In this document: in pieces, positions 29,390 through 50,200 of the stretch
How the letters are laid out: each line of letters starts with the position of its first letter
How positions within the stretch are numbered: position 1 is the stretch's first letter
Assembly (NCBI GenBank): GCA_963920765.1
Contig: OY987247.1
Span: forward strand, 22,602,471-22,666,470
From: Ulota crispa
Lineage: Eukaryota; Streptophyta; Bryopsida; Orthotrichales; Orthotrichaceae
Reading direction: 5' to 3'
DNA: 64,000 nucleotides
Notes under the pieces: model-generated
Databases searched by the model: none
What the model was told of the DNA's origin: nothing
What the model saw: the letters and a program-made list of their open reading frames with translations, nothing else
Made by a program: the position numbers and the translations under genes

Positions 29390-29499
29390 CCAGCAACTTC
29401 AAGGTTGTTGGAAGCCGTTGCGCAGAGCCAAGAGTGGAGACTGCCGGTCAGGGGAGCCCTTAAGTACCTAAGGTCGTGCTGGGGCACATGCCATGTGAC

Positions 29500-29720
29500 G
29501 GGCAACCGCGGGTAAGGGCAATCGTGGGTATAGGTAGAACCAGTGAAGCGGGGTGCGTGCTCGACAAAGGCGGCGTTTAGGATGAATGGGCGCATGCATT
29601 GGGGCGCCCGCGGGTTCACCTGCAACTGCCAGTGCATCGTCGGCTGAGACTAAGAAGGGGCGCGTGCATAGGACGTGAGCGCCTACCAAGGCAACTGCGG
29701 ATGGGGCGACTGCAGGTCCC
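29500..29720 (-). repeat. GC-rich motif array 2
   Basis: The plus strand carries GGGCAACCGCGGGT, GGGCAATCGTGGGT, GGCAACTGCGGAT and GGGCGACTGCAGGT, plus GGGGCGCGTGCAT. It lies upstream of module E and reads ACCCGCGGTTGCCC on E's coding strand. Open frames across it are produced by the repeats and were not called as genes. Confidence 0.7.
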
Positions 29721-29748
29721 AGGGTGGCAAAACCATTCTTTCTTTTTA

Positions 29749-30160
29749 TTGATACACATCCTTCCTGGAGCCTTGGAGGAAGTAGTACAAATTCCAAGTG
29801 ATTCCAACACTTTTTGCTATATGTAATAAATAATCAATCCAATATCCCATTCTTTGGCAAATATTTGAATACATGACCTCCAAAGGGGTCACCTTGATCC
29901 ATATTTCAATTTAATCCCAAAAAATCCCACACGTCACATACCCTTATTGAAGAAAGTGGCCCAAATTACATGTCATTCCAACATTTTTTGCTGTAGGTAA
30001 TAAATAATCAACCCAATATCCCATTCTTTGGCAAGTATTTGAATAAGTGACCCCCAAAAGGGTCATTTTGAACCCTATTTCATTTCAATCCCAAAAAATT
30101 CCCTCACACTCACCCTTCATGGAGGGAATTTCTAGATTCCTAGTAATTCCCAAACGTTTG
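29749..30160 (-). repeat. 175-bp satellite, minor block (two full monomers plus a partial)
   Basis: These monomers are the reverse complement of the tandem repeat at 41,440-43,410. The landmark TTCTTTGGCAA followed by the (G)TGACC...GGGTCA box recurs at 29,873 and 30,047, 174 bp apart. A weaker third copy begins near 30,115 (CCCTTCATGGAGG). The block sits between GC arrays 2 and 3 and between the starts of divergent modules E and B. Confidence 0.85.
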
Positions 30161-30225
30161 AAGTTAGAATTTGAATACCCCCCCATCCTCTCTTCTTTTT
30201 GCGCACAAGGACCCATAGTTGCGTG

Positions 30226-30494
30226 GGAGTTGTGCACGTGCCCCAGGCAACCGGCAATTGCCTTCTCCTATGCATGCGGCTCTTGCGACTGGTGGTCTTG
30301 CCAAAATTAGCCCTATTTGCATGCATTGATAGAAGCACCTCTCTCCACAACCCGCGGTCGCCTACTAGTCCTGCACACCCTTCAAATGTCAATGGCCAAC
30401 CGGCAGTCATCCTATTTGCACGCGCCCTTGAAATTGCAATGGGCGACCAATAGTTGCCCTACTCGCACATGCTCTAGGGCGACTGTAGGTATTT
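30226..30494 (+). repeat. GC-rich motif array 3
   Basis: Copies include CAACCCGCGGTCGCC, AACCGGCAGTCATCC and CCAATAGTTGCCC, with TTTGCACGCGCCC nearby. Orientation is mixed, but the ACCCGCGGTCGCC form dominates on the plus strand, the coding strand of module B, which begins about 250 bp downstream. Confidence 0.6.
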
Positions 30495-30789
30495 GTACAC
30501 GCCTCGCGCTCTTGCACCTCACTCCCTGCATTGCACAACAGCTTCTAAACCCCACACAGCATCTAGATGCATACATGTGTGCAGGGGATACGAGCTTAGT
30601 ACCAAACTATTGCCATTTTTTCCATTGACTTCTTTTTCCCAGCGCCACGAGGGTTTACTTTCAAGAGATTTTATCTCAGATTTAGGATTTTCCTAAACTA
30701 TAAAGATGGATCTGAGCTTGAAGAAGAGGAAACCAAAAGAAGATTGTCACCACAGGCAACTTTTAGTACTTATGGACCTAGCAGCAATG

Positions 30790-32215
30790 GCATTTGCAAA
30801 GTTGGCGCGACATTCAAGGAATTTGGACTCTCACGACTTGCAAGGAATTTATTGGATGGTGCCATGTCAACAAGTTATTCTCTTACCATCGACACAAGTT
30901 CAATTTGAGACATAACCAAGCAAACCTGCATTATTGCAAAGACAACGCATTTGTGCAACAATGTGTTGAGGTGTACAAAGTGCTCTACAATGTGCATAGA
31001 ATTCCACAAAGCAAAGTTGGGCTAAATCTATGTCAGATGGTGCACGCCAAACTCAAGCTACACCAAACAATGGATTGGAAAACCATGAAGGCATCAAAGA
31101 ATATGACAGTGCCAAGAACTCCACACATACCATGTGCAGTACTTTCAAGCAATCTACATGAAGGGTTAGGGCCTTGAAAGAATATCAAAGACACAATGAT
31201 TGATGTTGACTATAAATGGTTAGATTCATCTAACAAACATAGCTTGGATGATGATGTTGGTCCGTTGGAGCCCATGGCTAGGACAGCGGAGCTAGTACTA
31301 CATGTGAATATATCTACAATAGTACCACAAGAGGAGCAAGTCGTGGAGGTGAAAATACCTACAATAGTATTGCAAGTGGAGCCAGTTGTGGAGATGAATA
31401 CACTTGAAGTAGTACCACTAGAGGTGTCAGTACTGGACATGAGTACACTTGTAGTACTACCAAAAGTAGAGACTGTGGGAGGTGGAGAACCCACGTTCAT
31501 GGAGGCAATGGGCATAGTGGAGCAAGTGGGAGGCCCTGAAGGGAATTTGGACATAGCACATGAAGGTGAAGATCCACAAATGCGTACAACTGTAGTGAAC
31601 AAAGTGGAGGGCGATGTTAGGTCTCCAAATATAGTTAATCAGATAAGAGATGATTATAAAAAAATCTTGAAAGGCCTGTTGAAAGATTTGGAGGATATAG
31701 AACTGGAGTGTGAGATTATCCAAGAGCGGATAGGGGTTGGTATTGCGGAGGATGATGTTGCAACTCAAGAAGCACTTATTGAAACGAGAAAAGTTCATTT
31801 GGAGTTCCAACGCAGGCAGATGCAAGAATTGAAGAAGTTCTTTGTGAAGTACAACAAGAGTCAACAGAGGGCTTCCAGCTCAAATGCCAACTCACAAGTA
31901 GATGAGCGCCTTCAACAAATTATGGATGAATGCAATGTGGAAGAAAAACGTGCAAATGAAGCTATGGATCATTTTGAGATAGCTCAAGCTCGTTCAATTA
32001 GAATGTTAGAGATCAAGGACCTTCCTGACATTGACCGAGATTTGTTTTTGGACTATGAGTACAAAGGGTTAAGTGATTTACCTCCATTGGTTATAGAAGA
32101 CTTGAAGTTGAGGTTGTTTATGAGTCTTTCAAATATAGAAGAGAAAACATTTGGTATTAAATGGCAAAAGGAACGGGTAGATGCGCTAGAAAAAAAATGG
32201 CATTTTAGGGGGTAG
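30790..32215 (+). pseudogene. Module B: WC...KLF family protein with coiled coil, nearly intact
   Basis: One frame runs from about 30,790 to 32,215, broken only by a TGA at 31,175-31,177. The N-terminal part carries the family signature TCKEFIGWCHVNKLF and the following HRHKFNL...NQANLHYCKD, aligning with modules C and D. LHEGLG just before the stop matches LHGGLG of D. After the stop come a Val/Glu-rich linker with repeated (T/V)(I/V)VPQ-like units, then long helical heptads (QIRDDYKKILKGLLKDL, RRQMQELKKFFVKY) and an Asp/Leu-rich end. An upstream TAG (about 30,785) and a shifted ATG at 30,706 show the start is damaged. No enzyme motif is visible and I do not recognise the family. Confidence 0.6.
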
Positions 32216-33166
32216 GTGCTCACTTCGGATATGAACTAGAAGCCATGACGATTGTACATAGGAATAGGGAGTGGGTAAGGAAAATAAAGCAATGCATAAC
32301 AAGCACAATAGCGCAACATGGATGTTGCATGATATGAAGGAGTACATTTTATTTTAGAGCTCTATATGTGGTTTCATAAACATACATGTACAAAGTGGAT
32401 TTTCTACATTGTAAAGTTTCAATTGGAATTACTTTGAATTTTGTATTGCTAGTACTTGATTGAATATTTGTAGTATGTGATGCCATCATTGCTATGTTGT
32501 GAAGTGGTGATTAGTTACTTTGATATTTAGTAATTAATTTGGAAAAGAGAGTGAAACCAAAGAAGAGAAAATGGCCTGTTCTAAAAGAGAAGATGGGGTA
32601 CAATGGTCATTTCTCACATACATTATGGCATTTCAATTATATTTAAGCATGTAGGAGATTATCTTGTATTTTTAATTAGCTAAGGAGTAATTTTGATAAT
32701 TTCCCTTTAATCAATATCTATGAATATGAGGATAAGCTTAATTTTGGAAAAGTATAGGTAAGAGCTAACATTATTGTTTAGGTAAATTAACTTATGGTAA
32801 CATTTGCATTGAACTCAAAATCTTATGGGAATTTGATCATTCTCAAAATGATTTTTAGAAGCAATTATGTCATTATGTGTGTGTAGATGTATGTCATAAA
32901 TTCTAATGTCATGAACTATAATCTCAATAATACGTTATCACTCATTTGTAGCCAATTTTCTTGTGAAAGCATAACTTTTATTCTAACAAGGGGATCCATG
33001 GAAATGTGCTTGTTTTTCATAACAAAAACACGGTTCTCATGGTTGTGACTGTTTTAAAAATAATTATAAACAATTTGAATTTATAATTTTTCCCTTTTTA
33101 TGGTGTTCAAACTTGTTAGTATAGAATGTCGTAGCGGGGAATGTGTAATTTGGGAATTCTAACTTA
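32216..33166. other. AT-rich spacer after module B
   Basis: No coding domain, repeat array or transposon end was recognised. Confidence 0.5.
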
Positions 33167-33179
33167 CTATATGCCAAGA

Positions 33180-33376
33180 GCATGTGGTACATGTGGTTGA
33201 ACCTTGTGATGTGCAGGGATTGTAGCAAGTTTTTTTAGGGTTTTCTTACAAATGCTTGGGTGGCAATTTCCTTGAATGGATTGTACCTTGCTGGCCTCGG
33301 CTATAACATTTAGTAGCGCTTGGTAGCACTGCCCTCCCTGCAGATGAAATGGTATGGAATATTCTAGACCGTTCAA
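33180..33376 (-). pseudogene. PAxYxP fragment, copy 2
   Basis: A minus-strand frame reads PARYNPFKEIATQAFVRK, then a stop and KNLLQS. It aligns with PASYKPLSKNATHALVRK...KNL at 38,294-37,992. At DNA level both share AATGC.TG.GTGGCA and TTTGTA.CTTGC. The protein family is not recognised. The two copies have the same orientation and sit on either side of the hAT pseudogene. Confidence 0.45.
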
Positions 33377-33605
33377 TGCACCAGATGAAATAGTGTGGAA
33401 TATTTCACACCCATCTTTAGCTACAAGGACACTACGCTGAATTTGTTAGAGAGTTTATGAAAGAGAGGCTCATTTTATTGCACATACGTCAATGTGGCGG
33501 CCACCCATGTAAGCATAATAAAAATAAAAACAAAACCAAAAAAAATAAAAAATAAAATAACTAGAGCATTACAAAACACTAGCGCCGTTTATGTGGAACT
33601 AGCAG

Positions 33606-33979
33606 TCGCGCTCCATGGAGCTGCAGTCGCCCTCCATGCCCTTGCACTCGCCCTTGTTAAAGCCACAGTCGCTATTTTTGTCTTCACCCTTGCAGTCACC
33701 CCTAGAAGGGCATAATTGGCCCTTTGAAGACTAGAATTGATCCTTTTGAGACCCGATGTTGCCCTTCCAGGACCCGTAGTTGCCTACCCGGACCTGTAGT
33801 CGCCCTTTCTAGACTCGCAATTGCCCTTTTTGGACCCACAGTTGCCCTTCCTGGATCCAAAGTTGCCCTTTTTGGACATACAGTTGCCCCATTGACTTTG
33901 CTTCACAAGGGTCATGTGAGGTTTTTCTAGAACTCATTGGACCCACTCTCCCAAAATTGCTCATTGGGCAACCACGGGT
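33606..33979 (+). repeat. GC-rich motif array 4
   Basis: At least a dozen units of the type GGACCCGTAGTTGCC or CTGCAGTCGCCCT recur about every 21-25 bp, with partner spacers like CTTTTTGGA. They read in the same sense as the hAT pseudogene starting about 240 bp downstream. One inverted unit (GGGCAACCACGGGT) lies at 33,966. Confidence 0.75.
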
Positions 33980-34220
33980 GCCAAGGGGGGAACCATAAAA
34001 CCACAGGTGCAGCTGACCCTAACTTACCTTGGTTTGTTGATGAACTCACGGCTTGAAACTTTGAAAGAGGCTTCATGCGGAACTCAGATATTTGGAGGGC
34101 AACAACCTTGCCTTGTGGGATTTGAGAGAATCTTTCAAGTGGGTTGCTTTGTCTCTACTTCTTTTTACATGACACGTTGCTAGCCATTTTTTAGTTAAGA
34201 ACTTGTGGAAAGTAAAGACC

Positions 34221-37200
34221 ATGGCTAATTGAGCTGCTGGAAAGGCTGCTGCCAACAATACACGGAGGGCCACAAGAGAATGGGATCCTTGGTTGTCTGT
34301 GGAGACTAACCCTAACAAAGGCATGAATTTCAAGATCTTGTGTTTTCTGTGGGTGGAATTGCGTCTTTGTTTGGAAAAGAGATCTCATGCACTTTGGATA
34401 TGGCGGCAATCCCTCTTTGCATTGTTGTAAACATGCTCCGAGGTTGGTGTTGGAAAAGTTCAAGAATTGTTAGAAAGTTGTTCCAACGGAAATGCTATAT
34501 GATGAGATGTGGGGGTTGAGTGAAGACGGCAATGGTTTAGCTCAATCCACAGCCAAGCCCGCATTGGAGGTTACAGAGGCAGCAATGCCTTTGTCAAAAG
34601 AAGGATCTGCAATTCCCGTTAGTTCACAGGAGGTACTACCTTCTAATCTAGATTCATTTGATTCTACTCTAGCATTAGTTGAGAGAAGGAAGTTTACTCC
34701 AAGTAGTTCACGCCAGATGAGTATGGATAAGCATTTTAGGTGGGTCTCAAGCAGAAGTTGGATAATACATGGGCTTTTTTTTCTATGAGGCCAAGGTTGC
34801 TTTCAATGTTGTGCAACATCCAGCTTTTGTGAAGGCAGTGAAGGAAACAACAGCATCTAGATTGATGAATCAGTGGCCATCATATAATGCGGTGCGCAAT
34901 AAAATGATAGTTATGAAGAAGGTTGCAGTGTCAAAAATGGTGACAAAGCAAACAAAGCAATGTATTGAACTGTATGGAGCAATAATTTGTTCCAACGGGC
35001 GGTTAGATACCAATTTACACCCGCTGTTGAACGTGATGCTGGTATGTCCAGCAGGTGATGTGTTTTTGGAATCCGTCAACACCACTGGAGAAAAGTAGGA
35101 CACTGCGTACACAACAAATATGATGGTTAAATACATTGAGGAAGTTGGAGCGCAAAACATTCTTCAACTATGTACGGACAACGCAACAGTGATGACAGGA
35201 ACCCTGGCAAAATTGGAGGAGAAGTACCCGCACATGTTTAGGCAAGGATGTGCTACTCACATTTTGGACTTGCTTATGGAGGATTGAGGTAAGGAGAAGC
35301 GGGTTTCAAAAGTAGTTTCAAGGTGCCTGGCCATCGTGAAGTTCATTAAAAAATACCATCATACATTGGCTCTCTTTCGGAAGTACTTGAAGTTGTCATT
35401 GCGACTACCTGCAGAGACACATTTTGTAATGAGCATTCTCATGATAGACCGCCTAGTGGAATGCAGGCAAGCTTTGTTATCTGTGATTACAAACTCCTCG
35501 TATATTGAGTTTGAGAAGAGGTTACTTAATCGGAGAAACAATTGTACACTCCAAATGCATGCGCGACTTGCTCGAGATGACATCCACTCTGATACATTTT
35601 GGCAAGAATGTGCCAATTATAGTACCTAATGAAACCTAAAATATTGGCCCTTTGAGTGTTTGACACAAAAGAACTAGCGATGCTGAGGGCTTGGATGGTA
35701 ATGCATCAACTGAAGCTTCACGTTTACTCTCTCAAAGAGGAGCCTTTCTTTCTAGATCATGAAACGGCAACAAAATTCAAGAAGCAATTTGAGGCTCAAT
35801 GGAAATTGATGCACACTGATCTCCATTTTGCTGGTGCACTACTAAATCCAAATTTGGTTGACGTACCAATCATTCAACACAATGGAGAAAGCAAGCATGC
35901 ATTGAATTGAGTTACACGGAAGCTCAGTGGGCCATTGGAAGTGTCAAAGGACAATTCAATGAGGGAGTTGATGGAATTTGAAGAGAAGACAGGCCCGTTT
36001 GACCCACTGCAGGAGGCTCCTGATATCAACTGCTGCAAACTATTGCCTCACTAGTGGTGGAATTGTGTGGGCGGGAATGCTCTTCCAAAAAATGCTAAGA
36101 GGATTTTATCTTTGACTTGTTCAGCATCTTCATGTGAAAGGAATTAGAGCATGTACTCATTTGTGCACAGTAAAGTGTGGAACCACTTGACCACATCCAA
36201 GGCGGAGGTGCTGGTTTATATTTACTCCTATAGCAAATTAGGTAGGGAGAAATGTGGGATAAATGTAGCTGCATTTTACAATAAATATTTGGAGGCAATA
36301 GATATGGAAGAAGAGAATGAGGAGCCACTTTCCTTAGGATCAAATTACGAACTTGTAGAAACCCACCAATGCGAGGTATGAAATAATAGGGAGGTGGAGG
36401 AACGTTTGGACAGAAGTGTATGGGCTGGATTGGACCCAACATTTGGGAGGAGACATGTATAATGTTAACAATAGTACACAAACACATTTGTCAGTGACAA
36501 GTATGAAAGAAGATCGTCAAGGGAGGAGAAGGAGAGCTGGAATGACAAACAACATGTGTTTGCTTGGGATGCATTTCCAATCGTACATTCCCCACTGTTG
36601 AGGGCAACAACTCCAAAGGACAACTTAGAAACTGCAGGCATTCCAGTGCCACCAACAAAGGAATATGCTATATCTCCCTCGCCAACTATCCCTTCGTTGA
36701 GCAAACCAATGACTTGCCAAAGCACACCAACAATTGCCACACCAATCACTGCAGAAATAAAAAGGCATGTGGAGGCAATACAAGAAGAAGTGATTGGGCA
36801 TGCAAGGCATCTAGTCTTTGCAGTACGTAGCAATCCAAGAACATGTGGAACGGATGACAAAGATGATTTTCCATTGGGAATTCTACGGCACCTGATGCGG
36901 AAGCAGCATGTCACACCCACCACTCTAGTAGTAGTTATAGTTGATGCTAGCGTTAGAAGGCGTATTCTCACAGCACCAATCACGCTAGAGAGGAACAAAG
37001 GTCCATAGTAGAGCGTTGATGAGGAACTCCGTGGCTCGACACCGCAATCCACTCAGCGTTCTTTGAGGTCTGCCCCCGGTGAATCTTCATTGGATCTGCA
37101 TGCACGTAAATTGAAAAAGCGCATCAATAAAGCAGATGACAAGAGTGGACATACTTCTAAACGCCACAGCCAGGTTGTTCAACCATTTATCATGGGTGAA

Positions 37201-37316
37201 AGTAATTCAACTAAAAACCATGGTCAATCAAGTGGAGGAATTACACAACACCTAAGATCCAACAACAATGGAGTCACAAATATTTTGAGGATAACAAAAA
37301 ATTTGGTGTGCACTTA
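34221..37316 (+). pseudogene. hAT transposase pseudogene (BED-like, DUF659, hAT dimerisation) with C-terminal extension
   Basis: An ATG at 34,221 opens a frame with an early TGA and a degenerate BED-type finger (LCVFCGW, then CCKHAP after a frame change). The frame from 34,769 to 35,629 holds the DUF659 core: YIEEVGAQNILQLCTDNA, then KYPHMFRQGCATHILDLL. Further on come WKLMHTDLHFAGALLNPN and RKLSGPL, then the C-terminal dimerisation motif WWNCVGGNALPKNAKRILS with TCSASSCERN. Lesions include a frameshift near 34,770, stops at about 35,096 and 35,285, and more after 35,630. The frame continues past the hAT domain into a Pro/Ser/Thr-rich, basic tail (36,502-37,316, one stop). hAT ends and an 8-bp target duplication were not found. 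Confidence 0.88.
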
Positions 37317-37991
37317 AGTAGGAGATGGAATAGACACTGAGGTTTGCAACCTAAACTCCAAGGTGGAATAAGAAAAAAAGCAGATTCTAGTACCAAGAGA
37401 AGAGGACAAGAACCAAAGCTCACGCGATTACAATACCACAGATTCTCCCTGTGATGGCACAAATGTTGATGTTGATGAAGTGCCTAGCAATGATACTTTC
37501 ATGTTATAAGTAGCAGAATTATAGCGTTGTAAAGTTGAAGGTAGTAATCATAATAGTAAGCAAAATTTTATTTTTGTTATCTCAATACAGCCTATATATT
37601 TATAGGATAAGTATAGATCCACATAGCATAGGTTGGTTTTTTGTAAAGTCTTCTTATGCAATGAAATCCCTAAATTATGTAGCAATGATTACAGTCCAGT
37701 GTGTATGTGTGTTCGTTTCCAAAAATGTTTAATTCTTTAACCCCTTAATGGCAAGGGCAAGACATTTTGGGGCTAGCAGTACTTTAAACTTCAAGAACAC
37801 ATAACTAAGCTTTCGTTTTAGCAAATTTTGTTTTATATTTATTCTATGTAAAATATAATTTAAGCATCAAATACTCAAGTTTGAGTACTATTAATAAATG
37901 CTTGCAATTGGTACCTTGAAATTCATGCCAATATTTTAAGTTTCTATTCTCTAGCTTACAATTTTTTTTCAAAATTGTTCAATTATTTTAC
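37317..37991. other. Spacer after the hAT pseudogene
   Basis: AT-rich with no gene or transposon end recognised. A hAT terminal repeat was looked for here and not seen. Confidence 0.4.
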
Positions 37992-38294
37992 CTACTCCAA
38001 AACCCATATTTCCATGCTTATGGGTGTGCCTACCTTACATGCACCTACTTTTGCACCTCCATGCACAAGGTTTTTTTTTTGTTTTCTCACTAATGCATGT
38101 GTGGCATTCTTTGAAAGTGGTTTGTAGCTTGCAGGCTGCATTCTATTTTTGGTTGAAGTTGAGGGTGGCCCTTGTGCATGGATTTTTGTAGCATCATAGG
38201 ATTTTTTTGATAGGCAAAAATTATTCATTGACATTCTTTTGGAAATACCCAAAGAACCATTGGCATTACTTAATTGTTGGAGACAACACCTCAT
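37992..38294 (-). pseudogene. PAxYxP fragment, copy 1 (longer)
   Basis: About 100 codons are open on the minus strand. The peptide is basic (MSMNNFCLSKKSYDATK, PASYKPLSKNATHALVRK). The second half aligns with the copy at 33,376-33,180, so it is a dispersed coding repeat and not a chance frame. No domain was recognised. Confidence 0.4.
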
Positions 38295-38519
38295 AAAAAT
38301 TTAAAGTGATGGCATCAATTTTCAGTTTGACAAGAATTTTATGGAAGCCTAGGGTGCAATGCAATTTTCATTATTGCAACCTGGCATTTTTTTAATATTT
38401 TGCACCCATTTTTTTCTATAGGCCTAAAGCTCACATTTTTTTTTGAGGCAACTAAGCCTTAAATTGCCAAAAAAAAAACCATTGTCTACGCGTGTACCCT
38501 CCCCTAGGATAACCTAGAG

Positions 38520-38900
38520 GCCGCCACCCGCAGTTGCCCATTGGCCACTCATAGTTGCCTAATATGCGCGCACCCTTGGAGCGACTAGTAGTTGCCGGAT
38601 GTGCACATGCCCCCGGGCGACCAGCAGTCGCTAGATGTGCACGCGCCCCCGGGGCAACTAGCAGTCGCCGGATGTGCACATGCCCCCGGACGACCAGCAG
38701 TCGCTAGATGTGCACGCGCCCCCGACGCAACTAGCAGTCGCCGGATGTGCACGCGCCCAGTACATGCGATCGGTGTCCCAGATCCGCAAGCGCACCCATG
38801 GGCGATCGCTGGTAGGAGCAACCACACGCGCCCTAGGCAACTTTGCGTGGGTGGACCAGCGCTTGCCCAAGGTGCACATGCGGGTACATAAGGCCCCACT
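38520..38900 (+). repeat. GC-rich motif array 5 with a 36/37-bp tandem repeat
   Basis: It begins with CCACCCGCAGTTGCCC. From 38,581 to about 38,760 five tandem units follow, starting at 38,581, 38,617, 38,654, 38,690 and 38,727. From the second unit on, two variants alternate (GCGACCAGCAGTCGCTAGA and GCAACTAGCAGTCGCCGGA), giving a 73-bp higher-order period; the first unit is a mixed form. Each unit ends GTGCACGCGCCCCC or GTGCACATGCCCCC. The array lies upstream of module C and reads in its sense. Long GC-rich frames across it come from the repeat. Confidence 0.85.
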
Positions 38901-39237
38901 TGCATCGTCGATCTCCATTGCTCCTCCCTGCGCAACGGCTAGCAACCACCTCAAACTGGCCTCTTGTGCACACGCGAAGGGAGTGAATACTCTTTTGGAG
39001 GGGAAGGTTTTGACTTTTTTTCTTGCTTCTCCATCCAATCCTTTAGAATCCCATCTCGAGGCCAACATGTGCATGTGTAATTCTTGTATGATATTTTGGT
39101 TGTAATTGTTTATGATTTGAATGTTTATAAACTCAAATCTTGAGAGGATTATATTTTTCCTCTTCTAGAGCAAGTGCTTTTGCATTGCACAGTTCACTTA
39201 GTGTTTACAATAGCATTGGCCTTCATTAGTGACCATT

Positions 39238-40736
39238 ATGGAGAATGAGGTAGAGGAGTTGCGTCCTCCCGTTTGAAGAGCATTGTTGGCCTCAGAGCAA
39301 AAGGCCATCCGCGACAAGATTCGCGAACAAAGAGGAAAATTGCAAAAGAAGCGTGTGCAAATATTGCTCTATCCAAAGATTAAGGCTTTCAAGGGTTGGC
39401 TAGATGAACCAGAACCTTGGAGTTATGAAACGGTTAATAAATATTTGGATTGGTGCTACTTAGATAAGTTATTTCCTCTGTGTTGCCACAAGCAGCACTT
39501 GAAGCAGAACAAGGTAAATCTTGGATACGCCAAGGATGAAGAATTCAAAGACAAATGCTGCAAGGTGTGGCAAAAATTATATATGGAGCCCTCTACGTGT
39601 TGAAATGATAATTTTGGTTTATTTCTTATGAGAATGGTGTATGCTGAAATTGTATTAAAGAAGGAGGTGAATTGCAAAACAATAAAAGAGGGCCCCATCG
39701 TAGTACGTCTTGAGGAGGCTTCAATATTGCAGGGTAAGGAGCGTAGTATTTGGAAAAAGATGTTGGGATCTATGAAGCCCAGAAATTTTTTTGTTGTAGA
39801 AGCTTTAGTGCAGTGGTCACCTCCTTCTAGCAAAGATGAGCACACGCACAAGTACAATGGGTACTCTTTCCATAGCAACAATGACAACAACGCCAGGACA
39901 GTCGAGATCAAGAGGAGTTGCAAGGTGAGCAAGAGAGGGAAAGGAAAGAGGAGTCAATGGAGGAATTGGGAGTTTACCAAGAGACAAAGAGGGAAGAGCA
40001 ATCAACAAAGGAATTGGCAGCTAAACAAGAGAGGAAGAGGGAAGAGGAATTAATAGATCTTTCCTAGTGCTCCGAGAATATCAAAGAAGATGTGGCCAAT
40101 GTTCTACAGAATCCATGTTTGGAAGAGCAACAAAACATTGGCAGTGAAAGAGATGCAGAGGACAATGAATCTAGGTTGCTCAAAAAAATTGAGAGCACAA
40201 AGATATCTCTGTGTTTGAAGATGGAGTTGGAGAATTTAAAGAAACGTGAAGCAAATTGGAACGCCATGAATGTATTGAAGCAAAAACAAGAGGCTAGGGC
40301 GGACTTCATAAACCAAAGAGAGCAGCACATTAATGAATTGAAGAGGAAACGCAACTTGTGTTGGAAGGGGCTTTGTAATGAGAAAGATTGCACAAAGGAA
40401 GTTTATGCTGAATGGGAATCTAAACTAGATAACACTCTAAGAATGCATGAAGATATTTGATAGAGGAAGGACAACTTCAAGATAGAAGCAAAAGAATTAG
40501 AGCAAAAATATTTTGATGCCACTATTGAACATGCCAAAGAGGTGGATGATGAGAGTAGGGACAAAAGATACGATTGTGATGTTGAGCATGTAATGATGCT
40601 AGAGAAATGTATACATCTTTGTGAGCAAACATTAAAGATAATGAACTATATAGAGATGTGGACAAAAAGATCCATTCCTCATTCAAAACCTTTCCATGTA
40701 ATCAATTCTTCACCAAATCTAAATCCATTGACATAA
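39238..40736 (+). pseudogene. Module C: WC...KLF family protein with coiled coil
   Basis: An ATG at 39,238 (MENEVEELRPPV) opens a frame to 40,053 with two TGA stops (39,274 and 39,601). It contains AFKGWLDEPEPW, KYLDWCYLDKLF and QNKVNLGYAKD, aligned with modules B and D. Next is VYAEIVLKKEVNCKTIK, matching VYAEVSLKKQVDWSTVK of D. The end is very basic (KRGKGKRSQWRN, with repeated RGKxN units). After a frameshift, 40,092-40,736 continues with helical, Lys/Glu-rich heptads (LKMELENLKKREANWN) and one further stop. It parallels the N-terminal domain plus coiled-coil layout of B. Function unknown. Confidence 0.6.
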
Positions 40737-40739
40737 TTT

Positions 40740-41439
40740 AAAAGCATATAAAGGGGGAAAACATGCATTAAAGTTTGAAAAGTGGAGTATTCCAAATTTA
40801 TGCCTTTAATCCATGCCAAGTGCAATTTTGCACTATCAAATATTCTATATTCATCAACTTTTAGAATTCCACCAATAATTTTTTCAACTTTTAACTGCCT
40901 TTTAGAGCTTGAAATTGCCCCAACTCAAGCGAGCATCTTGTAGATAGAAAGAGGGACAAAATGCACTAAAATTTGACATGAATCAAATTACAAGAAGTAT
41001 TAACAAAAAATCATTTAGAAAAAACATCAAATTATAATCAAAATGCTTTTAAAATCATTACAAGTCCACTATCAATCTAAAACCACTACATTCTCACCTC
41101 ATTATTAGAGCTTTCAAAATATGTAATTTTAAATTTTAGATTTAGTGAAGTATTGATTGTGTGAGAGAAGTGTGATTGAGGAATGGATCTTTGTATCCCC
41201 ATCTCTATTTGACAATCTAGCGGCTGAGAATCAATGGCAAGGAGCGGTGTTGAAGTGCAAGAGGGCAACAGTGGGAAAATCAAGTATAGAATTAGAGAAG
41301 GAGGGTCCAAAGCCTCTGCTATATGACTTTCTCCCATGAAAAACCAGAACTTAGAAACCACTGAAGAGAGACATGGGAGACAATTTTGTAGGCTCAATTT
41401 TCACTTTGTAAATAAAAATTTATGTTGTATGTTTGATTT
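40740..41439. other. Spacer between module C and the satellite block
   Basis: AT-rich; a short plus-strand frame at 41,157-41,339 is not supported by any motif. Confidence 0.4.
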
Positions 41440-43410
41440 TACATTACAAGAAGTGTGACATGTGGGAATTTTTTGGGATTAAACCAAAACTTGGTTCAAG
41501 GTAACCCCTTTGAGGGTCACATAGTCAAATGCTTGCCAAAGGATTGGATATTGTGGTGATTATTTAATACCTCTAGCAAAAAGTGTTGGAATGACTTGAA
41601 ATTTATACCACATCCTCTTACATGGATGTGTAACATGTGGGAATTTTTTGGGGTGAAACTATAACTTGCTTCACGGTGACCCATTTGGGGGTCACATATT
41701 TAAACACTTGCCAAAGAATGGAATATTGGGGTGATTATTTGATACCTCTAGCTAAAAGTGTTGGATTGACTTGAAATTTTTACCACATCCTCTTACATGG
41801 GTGTGTGATATGTAGTAAAGTTATGGGGTAAAATTGAAACTTAGTTCATGGTGATTCCTTTGGGGGTCACATATTCAAATATTTGCCAACGAATGGAATA
41901 TTGTGGTGATTATTTAGTACTTATAGCAAAAACTGTTGGATTGACTTGAAATCTATACCACATCCTCTTACATGGGTGTGTGACATGTGGGGAAATTTTT
42001 AAGGTGAAATCAAAACTTGGTTCATGGTGACCCCTTTGGAGGTCACATATCTAAATGCCTGCCAAAGAATGGGATATTGGGGTGATTATTTAGTACCTCT
42101 AGCAAAATGTGTTGAAATTATTAGAAGTTTGTGCCACATCCTCTTACATGGGTGTGTGATATGTGAGAATGTTTTGGGGTGAAATTGAAACCTATTACAT
42201 GTTGATCCCTTTAGGGGTCACATATTCAAATACTTGCCAAAGAATAGGATACTAGGGTGATTAATTAATACCTATAGCAAAAAGTGTTGGATTGACTTGA
42301 GATTTGCACCACTTCTTGCAATAAAGGTGTATTGAACGTATGAATATTTTGGGGTGAAACTGAAACATGGTTCATGGTGACCCCTTTGGGGGTCACATAT
42401 TCAAATGCTTGCCAAAGAATGGAATATTGGGGTGATTATTTGATACCTATAGCAAAAAGTGTTGGAATGACTTGAAATTTGTGCCACATCCTCTTACAAG
42501 GGTGTGTCACATGTGGGAATTCTTTGGGTTGAAATCAAAACTTGGTTCATGGTGACTCTTTTGAGGGTCACATGGTCAAATACTTGCCAAAGAATGGGAT
42601 ACTAGGGTGATTATTTAATACCTATATCAAAGTGTTTATGATTGACTTGAATTTCATGCCACTGCCTCTTACATGGGCATGTGACAAGTGGGAATTTATT
42701 GGGGTGAAATTGAAACTTGGTTCATGGTGACCCCTTTGGAGGTCACATATTCAAATATTTGCCAAAGAATGGGATATTGGGGTGATTATTTAATAATTAT
42801 AGCAAAAGATGTTGGAATGAATTCAAATTTGTAACACTTTTTCCAATAAGGGTGTGTGAATTGTGGGAATTTTTTGGGGTGAAATTGAAACTTGGTTCAT
42901 GGTGATTCCTTTGAAAGTCACATTTTCAAATAATTGCCAAAGAATGGGATATTGGGGTGATAATTTATGGCCTATAGCAAAGAGTTTTGTTATGACTTGA
43001 AATTTGTGCCACATCCTCTTAAATGGGTGTGGGACATGAGGAAATTTTTTAGGGTGAATTTAAACTTGATTCATGATGACCCCTTTGGGGGTCACATATT
43101 CAAATACTTGCCAAAGCATGGGATATTGGGGTGATTAATTAATACCTAAAGCAAAAAGTGTTGGATTGACTTGAATTCTGTACTACATCCTTTTACATGA
43201 GTGTCTGACATGTGGTAATGTTTTGCGTGAAGTTTAAACTTGGTTCATAGTAATCCCTTTGGAGGTCACATATTCAAATACTTGCCAAAGAATGGGATTT
43301 GTTGTGATTATTTAATACTTGTAGCAAAACGTGTTGGATTGACTTGAAATTTGTACCACATCCTCTAACAAAGATGTGTGAAATTTGGAAATTATTTGGG
43401 ATTAAAATGG
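41440..43410 (+). repeat. 175-bp satellite, main block (11 monomers)
   Basis: A diverged tandem repeat. The landmark GGGGGTCAC (or a variant) ends at 41,520, 41,695, 41,870, 42,046, 42,221, 42,396, 42,571, 42,746, 42,921, 43,095 and 43,269, so the period is 174-176 bp throughout. Each monomer also has CTTGCCAAAGAATGGGATA, a TAGCAAAA.TGTTGGA box and CCACATCCTCTTACATGGG. Indels are few although substitutions are common. The minor block at 29,749-30,160 is the same monomer in reverse orientation. Confidence 0.95.
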
Positions 43411-44123
43411 GACATGGAAGTTGACAAATCTTTTAGGATCTTCATAGTTCCATTGGTTTGGTTGTTGTCAACATGACACATTGCCCTTGAGTCATTGAGA
43501 ACATTTCTTTTTTAAAATAATGCGGAAAGCCCTTTTTCAAATGAGGTGTAATTGATATTTATTAAAGTAGATGAGGTTAATCATTTTATTGCCCTAAAGC
43601 CATTACTATTTGATTATTTATGAAAAATGGTCCAAATGATATGAGTCAATGCTTGTGGTGTACAAAATACTAGAATCTATTGGAAGGAAAAGAGTAATTT
43701 TGAGATAAAGTATTGATTAAATTTGATCTTACACCAAAGATGATTTAATATCCTACAAATTGCCTCATGTGGGCATTAATTTTCTCTCCAAACATACATT
43801 GTAATTATCAATATTTTCCTCATAAAATGATGTGTTTGTCCAACTTCAATTTATGAGTGATGAAATATTACAATCTCAATGCTAAATACCTGAATTTGGG
43901 TACGAAAAGTCATGCACTATATTATCAAAATCAAATCAATGTAGATTTGCAATACATCTGTACAACATGAAGCAATAGAATATTTGATTTTCTAAATACT
44001 AACAAAATTCATGGTAATATTGCCTAAACCAAGCGTGGATATGGCAAAACCAAATTGTGGTGGCTTGTCTATAGTACAACCAATACAAGAAGCAACGTCT
44101 GAGTAGCTACAAGGGAAATTTTT
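43411..44123. other. Spacer between the satellite and module D
   Basis: AT-rich; nothing recognised. Confidence 0.45.
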
Positions 44124-46653
44124 CTACTTGATAAAGTTTGGGTTGTTTTGTGTGTCGCTACTACTACCTTTGCCACGTTTGTATGTGAGCGCCTCTTCAA
44201 CCGTAAGCCTCTTCCTTGCACAAGTTTGTGAAGCCGGTCCATCCGCATTCAAAATGGATTGCATAACATGAGAGTCTTGCAAAGCTCGTAGGGTCCTCGT
44301 AGTCCCTGGAGAATGTGCTTCCAACAAATAGTCAAGTGCTTGACTCACGTAACCTGGTCCATAAAAGGCATCACACATTGCCTGGGACACTAATTGGTCC
44401 GTGTTTGTTTCATCGGTGTTGGCCGTCTTGTTAATCTCAAAATCCCAATGGTGCCTTTGGCGATGAGGACCCCATTTGAAAGTGGAGGAGCTGTTATCGT
44501 AATACCTTCCAACGCATTGGAAGAAGAATGCTCTCTTCCCTTTGTTTGAAGGGCCTCTGCCCATAAATTGTGGTGCAACTTCTACAATCTCGTTAGGGTC
44601 AGTTTCTCAATTCAAATGCGTGATATCAATTCCCTTCTCCAAGTCATGTTGGGCGGATCTCTAGCTCCAAAATAGGTCTTTACCCCATAACGCCACCTCA
44701 TCCATGGTACTTGGGTTGTGTTCCCAAGAGATTGGCATGTATGTCAAGAGATTGAACATGACATAGAAATGCTCATGGAGTGGTGCTTTGCAAACAACGC
44801 AATGACGTCTAATCAAGCATTGCGTGATTAGACATTGAAGGTGGTAGACATGGGGACATGTTCCAAGCGCCCAACAACCTTCCGGTCTAAAACCAATTTG
44901 GCAAATGGGGCAAATTTGAGGTCCTTTGATAAAAGAAGCTGGATTCTTCCAAAGCAACGTCCGAGCTTCTGGGTCGTCATGGCACAACTTGTGATTCTTG
45001 TAGTCAAAGCCGTTTTGAGCCCAGTCTATTGCGCTAGGCCCTGTCACCACCATTACCATGTCATCCGGGAACATGTCTTCAAGCAACGCCCATGATGTCA
45101 TCCAATTCTCTCACTTTGGGTGATGAGTGTGAAAGTTATTTGCAACTTTAGCCAATTCTGTTCCAATTTGCTTAGAAAGGTCCACTATAAGAATGCATGC
45201 AACCTTCTAGTGGTAGTCCATTTTCATGACCTCCTCCAAGCGCTTTTTCAATACTTCATTATCATTTAGAAGTTCTTTTTCCTTTGCTGACGGCGTGGAA
45301 TGCTAGAATGCTGGAAAAAAGATAGAGTCTTGTGTGCCATGCACATCACTCATGTCATTTGCAGTGTCTTTCGTAGCAGCAGTGGTAGTAACAATTGGAA
45401 GTAGTGATACATGTCTCATATGCTTGGAAGGTGGAGAACGGTAATCAATGTCAAACGTCAAGTCACCTACAATCTTCTCCAACTACAGTGGATTATGCTC
45501 AACAAATGCGTTGTCCATGTCTTCCAAATTGATAGCCTTGCGCTCTTTCTCTTGAAAGTGCTGCAAGTCTACAGATTGCTCTGAAATGAGGATATTCTTC
45601 TGTTCACACTATAGTTACAGTTTGCTCACGTCAGCTTGAAGAGTGGCGATAATGGCATCCTTCATCTTCAAGAGATCTAGGGCCTTTGCTATGGAAATCT
45701 CTTCATCAGCTGCATATATTTGGGGTTGCTAAGGAGGTCTATGGACAATTGGTTCCCTTGCCATGTCTTTATTGTCCCCAAAATCATAGACGCAACTTGT
45801 GTCTTGTTGTACTGCAACTTGCACTAGATACTCCATTCCAATTGATGTTGGTCCAACATGATTGACTGATCTTTGTCTTGTGGACAACAATATGTTCCGA
45901 CGACCTTGTGAGCTTGATGTAGTTGCAATATTCCCACTTTGAACTGTGGCATGAGGCTCAGGAGCAGGACCCGCAAGACCCGCAAAAACAAGACCCACTA
46001 ACCCATCAACAACAATTCTTGTCTTGGGAATACGCAAGCCATCTGAATCATTGTCCTATATTGATTTTGTGAGTATCATATTTGACTGATTCCTAATTTT
46101 TTGGAGCGCTTTGAGTGATTCCAAGTCCACCATGTAGAAAAGTCAAAACTCCAAACGGTATGGAACCATTATTTGGACGTGTAATATACTTGCTTGGTTT
46201 CACCGTGCTCCAATCAACCTGCTTCTTCAATGACACCTCCGCATAAACTCCTCTTGCCACAAAGAGATTGACTTTGTTTCTATCCACAAACGAGGTTTGG
46301 TAAATGACTTGCACCACCTCAATACATCTCTAAGTGAAATTTGGACTAGCACTGAATTTCAAGTTTGCCTTGTTGCTGTACTGATGACAAGGGTGGCACT
46401 CAGCATGAAATAGCTTGTTGTTGTGGCACCAGTCAATATAATCTTTGCAAATTGGTATTTTCCATGGCTCTGGCTCCTCAACCCACCCTTTGAATGCAAG
46501 GTGATTGGGACTGTTCAACACATGCCAACATTTACGCTGTACGAGGCCTCTACGTGTCCAATTCCTCTCTACCAAAGCCTTTTGTATAGCTCTAGGGGTA
46601 TGTGCATCAAGTGAAACGGGACGAGACCCACTGCTGTTTCTTATGCTAGCCAT
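44124..46653 (-). pseudogene. Module D: WC...KLF protein with coiled coil and RING-H2 finger, broken
   Basis: An ATG at 46,653 (MASIRNSSGSRPV) starts the family domain: AFKGWVEEPEPW, CKDYIDWCHNNKLF, SNKANLKF, then AEVSLKKQVDWSTVK and LHGGLG. Then come a linker, a helical region around 45,720-45,200 (DLLKMKDAIIATLQADVSKL, KELLNDNEVLKKRLEEVMKM) and, at 45,101-44,661, a complete RING-H2 finger: C64-x2-C67-x14-C82-x-H84-x2-H87-x2-C90-x10-C101-x2-C104, numbered from 45,101. The C-terminal part (44,564-44,124) is Trp/His-rich then basic. RING-H2 fingers usually act in E3 ubiquitin ligases; that role here is inference. Several stops and frameshifts break the gene. Confidence 0.65.
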
Positions 46654-46855
46654 GTTAACAATACAAACAGATGGTTTGCCAAAATCCATATATGTAATCG
46701 TAGATAGTATAAAAAGTGAGTTTTCCTCACTAAAGTTATCGCAAGTAGCCACAAATGGTTACAAATTGTATAGCCGTAGTGAGGAAGAAAGCATCAAAAA
46801 GGGCATGGGCAACAGGCTTATATGGAGCAACTGGAGCTGGGAGTTGCAGGGATGG

Positions 46856-47270
46856 TGCAACCACGGGTACCAAGGCAATTGCGGGTCCGCAAGGCCCGCT
46901 CAAGTTGAGGGGCGCGTGCACATGGAGGTCTGGAGAGGGCGCGTGCGGGTGTGGAAGGGCACAAGGAGCTCTAGGGGGCAATTGGAGGACCGCAAATTGC
47001 GACTAAGGGTCGTGGAGGGCGCGTGCACATGGAGGTCTGGGGAGGGTGCGTGCGGATTTGGAAGGGCGCATGGAGCTCCGCGGGGCAATTGGAGGACCGC
47101 AAATTGCAACTGAGGGTCGTGGAGGGCGCTTGCGAGCTCGGGACCAACCACAAGTTTGCAGGTGACTGCGGTCTGAAGTTGCTTCAATGCAAGAGTTGCT
47201 CTCAACAACGGTCGCCCCTTACGTGAAGTCGCCCTACACCTCTAATTGCCCCCACCTAAGGTTGCCCTCA
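46856..47270 (-). repeat. GC-rich motif array 6 with a 107-bp direct duplication
   Basis: It includes GCAACCACGGGT and GGCAATTGCGGGT, then a 107-bp unit beginning GGCGCGTGCACATGGAGG at 46,911, repeated at 47,018, with a third partial copy from 47,125. It lies upstream of module D and reads ACCCGCAATTGCC on D's coding strand. A few units in the opposite sense (GTCGCCC, GTTGCCC) follow at 47,207-47,270. Confidence 0.8.
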
Positions 47271-50200
47271 TCTCAATGTCCCACTAAATCTACATGCGCA
47301 CCCCAACTATGCCACTTGGACACGACATGGTGTCCACCTAAGCTAATTTAAAGGAGGGGGAATTTTCAAACAGTCAAGGGTAACAATTTACCCTACTAGA
47401 TGGACGAAGGGCCTCATGTCCGTCTATAACATCAAGTTTGTTGAGTTGTTGACGTGTTGGGGAAGACAACCCTGCTTGTGAGGGTCAGTTAGAGGAATGT
47501 GGTAGTCATATTTTGTGTCATCTCAAAGTTTACAAGTCGTTTGTAATATGTTTACCAAGAGAATTATAGATGGAGATACTCAATCCTTCACACAAAATGG
47601 GAAGTTTGTAAGAAAGAAAAGGGGATGCATAGCAAATAAAATAATATGGAAGAAACAGAACAAGTAGTGTTTATCAGTCTACAATATTATTTGCAGTCCA
47701 TGTCCAGGGGGTCATTTGTTATCTATTATTGCGGCCATTGCTTTATGATGTTGAGTAGTGAATTACTAGCTCACTTGCACCTCCAATGAAATGGTGTAGA
47801 ACAGGTGATTGTGATTGTGGGGGAGAGAGGAACATAATCTAGAATGGAAATTCTATAAATGACACTTGCATAATTGTTTGTTATGCTTCTATAGTCATAC
47901 ATCTGGTACAATTTGGAGTGGACATGTGTATAAGTGAAGTGAAGTAGATATTACAATGGAAAACCTTGGCAGAACAATAACACAGAAATTGTTTAATGAT
48001 GAACGAACAAATTATGTTGTTGACATTGACAAGGTGCAAGCGTGGAGTATGTAATTGGCTATTTTTTGTCTATAATCTTTGCAAAAGAATCATTGTATGA
48101 TTTGTTGCTGCATTTCTGAAATTTTTAGAGGTATGTCATTGTTTATTGTAATTCAAGGTTTATTGCAAAGCTTGTTCAATGAATGGGACCTTGTAGGAGT
48201 AGTACTGGTTCCCTTAAAAATAATTACTTGCATTAGATTGACCTTTGCATAGAAATATGTCTTGTTGATAAAAAATGGGTAGACATTCTAAATTTGCTGT
48301 ATTCACTTTGACAAAGGAGGCCGTAATAGGATTTTGGGGGAAGACAAATTTATCAACCTTGTTGCGTTATCACTAAAGTGGGAGTATGTATTCCTCGTGA
48401 AGGAGTATTGTTTACTACGACTAATTTTATGGTGAAGGACAAGGAGTGGGAATTAATGGGAGCGTCTGCTTGCAATTAATTTGTGTAATAACTGTGGCAT
48501 GTGTAGTAATTGTCAGGTACTTTTAGATGACAAGTGTATGGCACAAAAAATGTATCATGTTTAGATTCCAAGTTCTATGAAATGCCTTGTGTTTCTTTGT
48601 GCACAAAGTACAAGAATATAGCATGTATTTTTGACGTTTTTGTTATGGTTTCTTTGGGCAGGCATCGAAAGGAATTGGAAGGCTGTTGTGGGCACTTTGT
48701 AGAAAATGGAGGTAGTGTATTTGCTCCATTTAAAAGCACCTAGAAGTTGGAAAAACGATGTTATGAGATTTTGAAAATGGTGATGACCTTGTCATGCTTT
48801 GGTTTTAGAGCATATTACATATGAACTTTTTTAGGAACACGTGTGTTAGTCAAGCATTGAATGTCATTGATCAATGTTTTGTAATTGTATGTGTAGGTTG
48901 TAAGTGAATGACATGATGAACTTACTCAGAACATGAGAGATAGAAACATTCAAATGTGAATATGAGTAACAGACAAGCTTGCTCAGTAAATATAATGAGG
49001 AGGAGGAGGAATTGATTTGAAAAAGTTTTTTGTGAGGGCAAAGTTGCTGTTGTTATGTTGTTGCATAGCAGAGTGCAACAAGTATTTGTCAATATTGTTG
49101 AATACTACTGAACGGCTTGGTCTCCAAAGGTTTATTGCTTTATCTGTGAAACATGGTTCAAATGTTTATAAATGTAATGAGTGTTGGGTAGGCAATTTTC
49201 TACATGGAGTGGTCATATACAATGCACATGTTAAACAAAGGATTGCTTGTATGACGTGGTACATGTTAATTACTCAATTGCTTGAAGGAAGAACGCAGGA
49301 GCCTGACATGTTTATGTGCTAACTATGTCTTAGTGCTAGTAGTGAAAATAGGCGTAATTGAGATTGCTCCAAAAAACAACCCTACAAAGCTCAGTTTCTT
49401 CAAATAATTCCATAGTCAGTAGTGGAAAAAGGAGATGCTGCAAAACCAATTCTTTTTAAATAACAATGTCCATATTCCAAATAAGAAGGTAAATTCTCCT
49501 GTGATAAAGTTGTAATATGATACAATTTAGTTGACAGTAATCAGGTACATGAGATGTGAATTCTATTTGTGTAGTGCAGACGTTTGGCTTTGTAGTAATT
49601 GACAATCAGATCTGCAATGAAGAGGGTATGCGTAAATACAGAAAATCAATTCAAGGAGGGTTTTTTATTTGGTTGTACATAATGGTCGCATTTGAGAGTT
49701 AAATGTGAGGTGAATGTGGACTATGCCATGAGAGGTGGAGGGCACAACATGCTTGACATGCCATTTCTTAACAAAGAAATACGCAACTAGGAATTTGTAT
49801 GCAATGCCAGTATTACGGAAGTATTGTTAAAGAGTTGGCAGAAAGGAAATGTGATATAGACTACTGAGAATGTTTTGTAAAAAGTGGACGTACATGTTTT
49901 CTTGACTTCAAAAATGGTGGAGTTGCAGGTATGGCCACATTTGTGTAGTAGTTATAGTTGTGGGTGATTGCAAGAACCACCAATCCTATTTGGTGTCCCC
50001 TTCACCTCTCGCAAGTGCTATTTGGCTTGTAACTTTTGCGCAACAAGTTCTTTTGAGCTGAATTTTAGAGGAAGGTACATGTCATAGTTACGTACATTCT
50101 ATGATTTTGCAGTTTTTTAAAGTTATTTACTATTTTGAAATAGCCCCCAAGTAGGTGTCTACCTTTGCCATTTTGGGGGTTTTTAGTACTATTTTGGGTC

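Follow-up and report, generated by a model that had tools for sequence, protein, structure and literature searches.

Background

hAT transposons are normally regarded as one-gene elements: ordinary members are a few kb long and carry a single transposase gene, and simple hATs move without helper proteins. Plant hATs with DUF659, together with Ac/Tam3, are taken here to be the closest known hATs. Richer gene contents have been described in other DNA transposons. Extracts of PMC10398659 and PMC5735166 describe the VANDAL Mutator-like elements as carrying several genes besides the transposase, including those for the VANC anti-silencing proteins, and report the targets of VANC as rapidly diverging. 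According to extracts of PMC12730594, the fungal DNA transposons that carry TET/JBP genes include hAT7 and the alpha-kinase-carrying IS3EU.

Here we describe a locus of Ulota crispa, studied in a window (the whole stretch of DNA analysed) of 64,000 nucleotides, where a hAT transposase, a kinase-like gene and three genes (B, C and D) sharing a new domain, the WC domain, very probably form one hAT-superfamily DNA transposon of ~22 kb with this gene set. It resembles the plant hATs with DUF659 in its transposase domains, short terminal inverted repeats (TIRs) starting with CAAGG and 8-bp target duplications, but differs from ordinary hATs in its size of 22 kb and its four extra genes, some of them under past selection. 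The domains were recognised in the C4 and C2 copies and the duplications in copies other than that of the window. With the VANDAL elements (extracts of PMC10398659 and PMC5735166) it has in common the extra genes, an element-specific protein family and noncoding tandem repeats of varying copy number, yet it is a hAT and not a Mutator, and its 175-bp unit has been retained across types that have diverged. VANC-type anti-silencing acts through binding to noncoding tandem repeats and demethylation; the features seen here are the tandem repeats and the past methylation-type decay. The fungal elements are likewise DNA transposons, hATs among them, with accessory enzymes, and in IS3EU a kinase lies beside the transposase; however, these are fungal, hAT7 makes 7-bp duplications, and a TET/JBP dioxygenase stands where we find WC-RING proteins (extracts of PMC12730594). 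Instead of a Mutator transposase and about 9-bp duplications, or of the CACTA termini, 3-bp duplications and tnp2 of CACTA (En/Spm) elements, we found a hAT transposase, 8-bp duplications and CAAGG termini. Among the titles listed from the open-access (PMC) literature, none concerned a hAT that carries kinase and RING genes besides its transposase.

Results and discussion

Genes of the element

BLAST comparison with copies on C8, C2 and C4 placed the whole element at 25434..47474 of the window, with no strand assigned. It extends on both sides past the 30790..46653 interval covered by the initial annotation. A separate tnp2 gene lies outside it, at 57.3-58.4 kb of the window.

Gene B (30788..32215, + strand) consists of a WC domain (30788-31174) followed by a tail that looks coiled-coil by eye (31178-32215), and gene C (39238..40652, +) has the same organisation, with its WC domain at 39328-39780 and the tail also assigned by eye. 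Gene D (44127..46653, -) encodes a WC domain (46096-46554), a coiled-coil-like part, a RING-H2 (44787-44915) and a C-terminal part. The domain of ~110 aa is indeed common to the three, as had been noticed from the sequence alone: D is 38% identical to C and 38% to B, and 24 of 155 alignment columns are invariant. The motifs attributed to it held in part. C and D contain EPEPW; the final LHxGLG occurs in B and D, C having WKKMLG instead; and WA replaces WC in the one type III copy read, so that the motif giving the family its name is not family-wide. Stops or frameshifts break all three window genes.

The initial annotation could not name a family for this domain, and neither could we. Eleven members compared with Pfam at E <= 10 gave five families, one member each, with a best E of 0.084, and the PDB at E <= 10 gave no match. 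A BEN or SAM-like identity was considered and rejected (1/11 members matches SAM_PNT with E 0.12; nothing in the PDB). Since there is no structural match and the only fold attempted had a mean pLDDT of 45, DNA binding by the WC domain is a guess. A match to a known transposase, regarded in the annotation as telling against an undescribed family, was found for the element (hAT) and not for the WC proteins.

The RING-H2 of window gene D has all eight ligands in order, in agreement with its first description, although its zf-RING_2 match (E 0.0074) is under the Pfam cut-off. The pattern C-x2-C-x(9-39)-C-x-H-x2-H-x2-C-x(4-48)-C-x2-C is present in 4/5 sequences, window D included; in L042 the first ligand is missing. 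Against the Pfam RING cut-off of 27.3, L045 scores 32.0 and L052 barely more than the threshold (27.4), and L042, the C2 copy and the window copy fall under it. The eight-ligand pattern is that of RING-H2 ubiquitin ligases, but D is transposon-encoded and fuses its RING to the new WC domain, and its ligase activity is putative.

The decayed kinase-like gene (27705..29398, -) was recognised from its open reading frames, the Pfam match of the C2 copy and the genome search. The C2 copy scores 31.2 bits against Pkinase, just under the cut-off of 31.7, and for L052 no match to Pkinase was obtained at E <= 0.1. The catalytic motifs read HND in the C8 and C4 copies, YND and DWG in C2, HNA in the window and HNN in L052; judging from these motifs, the loss of the catalytic Asp in the last two may reflect a pseudokinase or decay. 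The hAT transposase (34321..36381, +), also decayed, is 68-73% identical to the C4 transposase at 34321-35557, and 36148-36381 was assigned by eye to the dimerisation region. In sister copies the transposase matches DUF659 (1.5e-29, C4) and Dimer_Tnp_hAT (3.4e-7, C2). At its 3' side a reading frame without family (36475..37317, +) is present in sister copies too.

A large clan in the genome

Genome searches at E <= 0.001 returned at least 133 matches to the WC domain of D (150 of 162 candidates scored) and at least 148 to that of C (150 of 174). These were merged by hand into 145 loci, and in the same way 101 kinase matches gave 90 loci, 126 RING matches 114 and 99 hAT matches 87. The lists omit fragments of listed loci and, for no good reason, the WC matches C2:3473026 and C2:116516 as well as a pair of kinase matches on C11 (2.796-2.798 Mb); all locus counts are lower bounds (best candidates scored: 98 of 154 in the hAT search, 40 of 87 in the array search). 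For comparison loci were placed uniformly at random on the same contig, a model that does not include clustering near contig ends.

Among the loci listed, a WC gene lies no more than 10 kb from the kinase in 65/90 cases (random mean 2.2), the nearest one being head to head with the kinase in 59 of these 65. A kinase was found near 58 of the 87 hAT loci listed (random 1.5) and a WC gene within 15 kb of 60 of them (random 2.8). A same-strand WC domain lies at most 5 kb upstream, at a median of 1322 bp, of 78/114 RING loci listed (random 0.4). This association, together with the restriction of the RING end to D in elements of type I, speaks against the earlier suggestion that the WC gene swaps C-terminal partners. 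All four parts were present in 44 of the 151 clusters listed, and 107 were incomplete.

Five other loci repeat the order and orientation of B, C and D, and one more set, on C11, is dispersed over 42 kb. We reject WC genes that are mobile separately, as first proposed, since the three genes come back together in the same order and are enclosed by the shared borders: the mobile unit is the entire ~22 kb hAT element. That they are transposon-borne and multi-copy has stood, given the common borders and the number of domain matches. The window copy is a decayed member of a large multi-gene hAT clan in the U. crispa genome, the core of which is a hAT transposase, a kinase-like gene and from one to three proteins with the WC domain, of which at least one carries a RING-H2 end.

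Tandem arrays and a possible mechanism

Two tandem arrays of a 175-bp unit lie within the window element, a left one of about 2 units between the kinase and B (29773..30125, -) and a right one of about 11 units (41453..43417, +), inverted with respect to the first. We found at least 40 arrays (the best 40 of 87 candidates), 33 of them at most 12 kb from a kinase or hAT match and the remaining 7 at most 12 kb from a WC or RING match. Tandem Repeats Finder detected no array in the type III copy L052, which has less than 2 units. Its unit is 76% identical to that of the window over 169 bp, whereas the pS of the RING coding sequence, compared between L052 and a type I copy, is saturated at 0.82. 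The conservation of arrays between types could come from homogenisation or from exchange between elements. The majority unit contains a palindrome with 8-bp arms, reached by 19 of 1000 shuffles; its conservation does not exceed that of the other positions in the unit.

We propose that the transposase would cut and paste the whole element, and that the WC proteins, as coiled-coil dimers, would bind the palindrome of the arrays adjoining the element genes. The RING form would be a ubiquitin ligase whose target is a host protein of silencing or chromatin, and it would be tuned by the element's own kinase, the outcome being an escape from methylation long enough for the element to move. More generally, we infer that WC proteins attach to the repeats and act together with RING and kinase, either against host silencing or in favour of transposition. 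To the whole explanation, the multi-gene hAT element plus this mechanism, we assign a probability of about 0.6. Taken by itself, array binding with anti-silencing is a tentative proposal, and it is somewhat more doubtful that a hAT lineage evolved its own host-control module, the WC family reading a 175-bp palindromic repeat and the self-encoded RING ligase and kinase removing or blocking silencing.

Similarly doubtful, although possible, is that the WC proteins are transposition helpers which bind the arrays and join the ends of a very long element, with kinase and RING regulating the transposase. Arrays in the left and right parts of the type I element, oppositely oriented in 4/4 copies, are what such a role would lead one to expect, as is the WC gene near 60 of the 87 hAT loci listed. 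However, the arrays are located about 4-6 kb inside the element ends and not at the ends, their placement relative to kinase and hAT varies between element types, and simple hATs are mobile without helpers.

Selection and decay

Past selection bears on whether the accessory genes matter to the element at all. By Nei-Gojobori counts with Jukes-Cantor correction (own script), dN/dS between subfamilies was 0.34 and 0.25 for two pairs of C genes and 0.27 for one type II pair of D genes; in these three pairs the WC genes were formerly under purifying selection. The values of 0.35-0.62 between the closest copies are partly neutral decay. Among four close type I copies, a scan by codon position yielded no clear coding signal, as expected if neutral decay followed amplification, selection being visible between subfamilies. 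C-to-T changes specific to the window copy, counted on both strands, affect 31/124 CG, 32/132 CHG and 168/3123 CHH sites. C-to-T change at CG/CHG marks the decay of the window copy, which was therefore methylated.

It is improbable, in view of this selection, that the kinase and WC-RING genes are captured host passengers that do nothing for the element. Plant DNA transposons are well known to capture genes, which lends the idea some plausibility, but the gene set is retained in diverged elements with altered gene order. Of the 151 clusters listed, 9 are kinase-only and 11 WC-domain-only, and some of these may be host genes. A term search in the available text of the review PMC13317346 gave no mention of hAT or kinase.

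Borders of a single element

The BLAST alignments with the C8, C2 and C4 copies all start at 25434 and stop at 47474, 47478 and 47469, respectively, so that the borders are common to 3/3 fetched copies, which are ~78-89% identical to the window copy in long aligned pieces. The left TIR CAAGGTTGTCT (25434..25444, +) and the right one (47464..47474, -), which reads CAGGGTTGTCT inward and ends at the right border, agree at 10 of 11 positions. The C8 copy has CAAGGTTGTCT on both ends and other copies have one to three differences. The TIR pattern matches 63+61 times in the genome, versus 3+5 for the reversed pattern, and many of the matches carry a TIR that is related but different. With the borders set by eye, the 8-bp target duplication matches at 8/8 bases in C4, 7/8 in C6:19.17 Mb and 6/8 in C2 and C8 (chance of a 6/8 match 0.004 each; 2 of 5 copies tested). 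Thus both marks of a mobile unit named in the initial annotation, conserved borders and target duplications, were found among the copies; the duplication is absent from the window copy (3/8 matching bases). Type III elements were searched for borders and none were found.

That the cluster arose by chance nesting of transposon genes or by segmental duplication, and is not one element, is very improbable. The region is repeat-rich, the type Ib copies on C8, C3 and C1 have sequence in common beyond the left TIR, and the window holds an inverted near-identical partner tract, all of which would fit such an origin; against it, flanks differ at C8, C2, C4 and C6:19.17 Mb despite common borders and TIRs, with duplications of 6-8/8. 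The shared type Ib sequence indicates that some copies spread together with their flank. Least credible is an origin from a large DNA virus that became endogenous, or from a Maverick-like element, since for all the element's 22 kb and the kinase and RING genes that large DNA viruses commonly carry, it has a hAT transposase, short TIRs and 8-bp duplications, no polymerase, capsid or packaging ATPase match among 28 reading frames scanned and no relative among viral contigs (0/28 pattern matches confirmed).

Conclusions

The single hAT element with its own accessory genes thus represents a clan of four or five genes in which ligase-like and kinase-like genes have been kept through deep divergence and changing gene order. 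This is strong indirect evidence that the helper genes pay for themselves, and it points to transposons equipped with a host-control kit of their own. The 175-bp unit provides an immediate testable target for the WC domain. If the anti-silencing role is true, ubiquitin signalling would join the short list of ways in which transposons act against methylation, and the clan would be a ubiquitin-based counterpart of the VANC and TET-carrying transposons.

Structure and borders of the element

The three genes B, C and D, with a common "WC...KLF" domain of about 110 amino acids (WC domain), were found where the initial annotation had placed them, and they are homologous, D sharing 38% identity with both B and C in this domain and 24 columns being invariant. 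All three are decayed in the window. The suggestion of a mobile gene holds in that they are transposon-borne, but the mobile unit is one element with common borders and not three separate ones. The D domain had at least 133 matches in the genome. The order and orientation of D, C and B were the same at five other loci, on contigs C8, C2, C4, C10 and C6 (at 19.17 Mb; C6 also carries the window), and a sixth set on C11 was spread across ~42 kb. When the window was compared with 60-kb stretches around the C8, C2 and C4 loci, all three alignments started at window position 25434 and they ended at 47474, 47478 and 47469, with ~78-89% identity in the long aligned pieces. The termini are a short inverted repeat (TIR), CAAGGTTGTCT, the ends of the window copy differing at one position. 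An 8-bp target duplication was complete in C4 (8/8) and partial in C6 at 19.17 Mb (7/8), C2 (6/8) and C8 (6/8), and none was found at the window copy (3/8 bases match).

This kind of element, which we call type I (the labels type I, II and III were coined for the present analysis), contains a kinase-like gene (minus strand), B (plus), a hAT transposase (plus), C (plus) and D (minus). An additional nameless frame located 3' of the transposase (window ~36475-37317) is shared with the sister copies on C8, C2 and C4. In these copies the transposase matched the Pfam families DUF659 (1.5e-29) and Dimer_Tnp_hAT (3.4e-7), D matched zf-RING_2 (E 0.0013) and the kinase-like gene reached 31.2 bits with Pkinase versus a cut-off of 31.7. 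The RING-H2 of the window D retains all eight ligands.

A dispersed repeat in the left part of the element (window 26885-27433) has at least 24 places elsewhere at 87-91% identity, among the best 40 of 4106 candidates; as the C8, C2 and C4 alignments cross it, it probably predates the amplification. Inverted pairs of TIR-pattern matches ~360 bp apart (C1:18095361-18095721, C3:13196463-13196825 and C4:6015595-6015955) probably represent short non-autonomous elements whose TIR resembles that of the giant one. Beyond the element, a CACTA-type tnp2 transposase is found at window 57336-58413 on the minus strand (Transposase_21, 9.2e-25). Another tnp2 match is located at 2290-3000 of L049, a stretch with a type Ib copy (Transposase_21, 7.7e-19), and similar reading frames were seen by eye at window 18541-19321 and in L049, adjoining the D gene.

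A clan of multi-gene elements

The clan was searched within this one genome, using as queries the C domain (at least 148 matches), the kinase (101), the RING end of D (126) and the transposase (at least 99), besides the D domain. Merging the matches by hand left at least 145 WC, 90 kinase, 114 RING and at least 87 hAT loci, and loci placed randomly on the same contig served as control. A WC gene was located within 10 kb of 65 of the 90 kinase loci (random 2.2), the kinase and the nearest WC gene being head to head in 59 of these 65. Similarly, 78 of the 114 RING loci had a WC domain on the same strand within 5 kb upstream (random 0.4), and 58 of the 87 hAT loci had a kinase within 10 kb (random 1.5). 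All four parts were present in 44 of 151 clusters; single parts made up others (hAT 17, RING 14, WC 11, kinase 9) and the remainder were other partial sets. The genome contains a clan of such multi-gene elements, and their gene order varies with the type. Type II contains hAT, kinase and two WC-RING genes, and type III, for which a search for borders gave none, has the order hAT (plus), kinase (minus), WC-RING (plus); elements intermediate to the three types are also present. Three type Ib copies, on C8, C3 and C1 (L048, L050 and L051), have in common ~50 near-identical bp beyond the left TIR, indicating that they spread along with flanking DNA, via duplication or within another mobile unit.

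Noncoding 175-bp arrays

All four type I copies examined carry arrays of a noncoding 175-bp unit on both sides and in opposite orientation, the left one between kinase and B and the right one between C and D. The left and right units number 2 and 11 in the window, 11 and 3 in C8, 3 and 2 in C2, and 5 (partly incomplete, in two blocks) and 3 in C4. Searching the genome with the unit gave at least 120 matches forming at least 40 arrays; among the 40 listed, 33 had a kinase or hAT match no more than 12 kb away, and the remaining 7 had a WC or RING match within that distance. The type III copy L052 has fewer than two units between kinase and WC gene, and Tandem Repeats Finder reported no array there. 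Its unit is 76% identical to that of the window over 169 bp, despite synonymous divergence between its RING coding sequence and that of a type I copy being saturated (pS 0.82). Exchange between elements could also explain this similarity between types. Unit matches at 175-bp steps (C4:25144758, 25144933 and 25145108) suggest that type III copies may carry a longer array. The majority unit contains a palindrome, GTGACCCC-TTTG-GGGGTCAC, with arms as long in 19 of 1000 shuffles. Conservation is no higher in the palindrome than elsewhere in the unit, which counts against this being the sole constrained site.

WC subfamilies and selection

No Pfam family was found for the WC domain, a PDB search with a profile of 11 sequences gave no match at E <= 10, and its predicted fold had a pLDDT of 45. 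The initial annotation had proposed a gene swapping C-terminal partners; the tree of 14 WC domains shows instead that B, C and D are paralogues. Strongly supported branches set apart B (2 rows, type I only), C (3) and type II (3), and a branch with 91/95 support set apart D (5). The single type III row had a long branch, and its placement, like that of the neighbouring C, is unsure. Since C and D each include type I and Ib rows, their split is older than that between I and Ib.

Selection was assessed in 14 pairs. Between subfamilies dN/dS was 0.34 and 0.25 for two C-gene pairs and 0.27 for one type II D pair; in seven deeper pairs synonymous sites were saturated (pS 0.78-0.93, dN 0.42-0.78). 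The values of four close type I pairs (0.35-0.62) reflect partly neutral decay. This pattern indicates that the genes were maintained while the elements multiplied and were afterwards lost copy by copy.

Genomic distribution and an inverted partner

Less than 2 Mb from a contig end were 89 of the 145 WC loci versus 16% expected, and 45 of 82 versus 15% when C6 and C11 were excluded (positions rounded to 0.1 Mb). The elements are strongly concentrated on distal C6 (19-22.9 Mb) and on C11, a 6.3-Mb contig that was the densest, with 11.4 WC, kinase and RING matches per Mb versus 0.5-3.4 on the others. One might guess that C11 is a sex or accessory chromosome.

The right part of the element has a partner ~80-90 kb upstream, L009 (C6:22558879-22566027), which is inverted and nearly identical. 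The corresponding tract in the window covers 44596-46968 and probably reaches 39328. Identity is 99.75% over 2373 bp downward from 46968 and 82% from there to the TIR, and the C domain and array scores are equal in both copies. The left flank of the window copy, GAAGTCAT, matches the flank of the partner's right end at 7 of 8 positions, as if flanks had been swapped through an inversion between the two, although a misassembly would look alike.

Silencing and the possible role of the helper genes

At positions where the three sister copies agree, and counting both strands, window-specific C-to-T changes affected 31 of 124 CG, 32 of 132 CHG and 168 of 3123 CHH sites. This decay at CG and CHG sites shows that the window copy was methylated and was a target of silencing. 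Many in-frame TAG and TGA stops were also seen, untallied, in the lists of WC matches; these can derive from CAG and CGA and so fit C-to-T decay.

Transposases of hAT elements are established to move them, and from its domains, the TIRs and the target duplications the one described here would move elements of the window type. The helper genes most likely benefit the element, because selection kept them. That they serve transposition is the main alternative to an anti-silencing role; we regard both readings as tentative, the anti-silencing one as only slightly the likelier. The methylation-type decay, the arrays beside the genes and the ligase-like RING fusion hint at anti-silencing, for which we take VANDAL elements as the model: their VANC proteins are described as binding noncoding tandem repeats and stripping silent marks (PMC10398659; PMC5735166). 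TET/JBP genes in fungal hAT7 elements and an alpha-kinase in IS3EU elements have also been described (PMC12730594). The RING-bearing WC protein could be a reader of the arrays.
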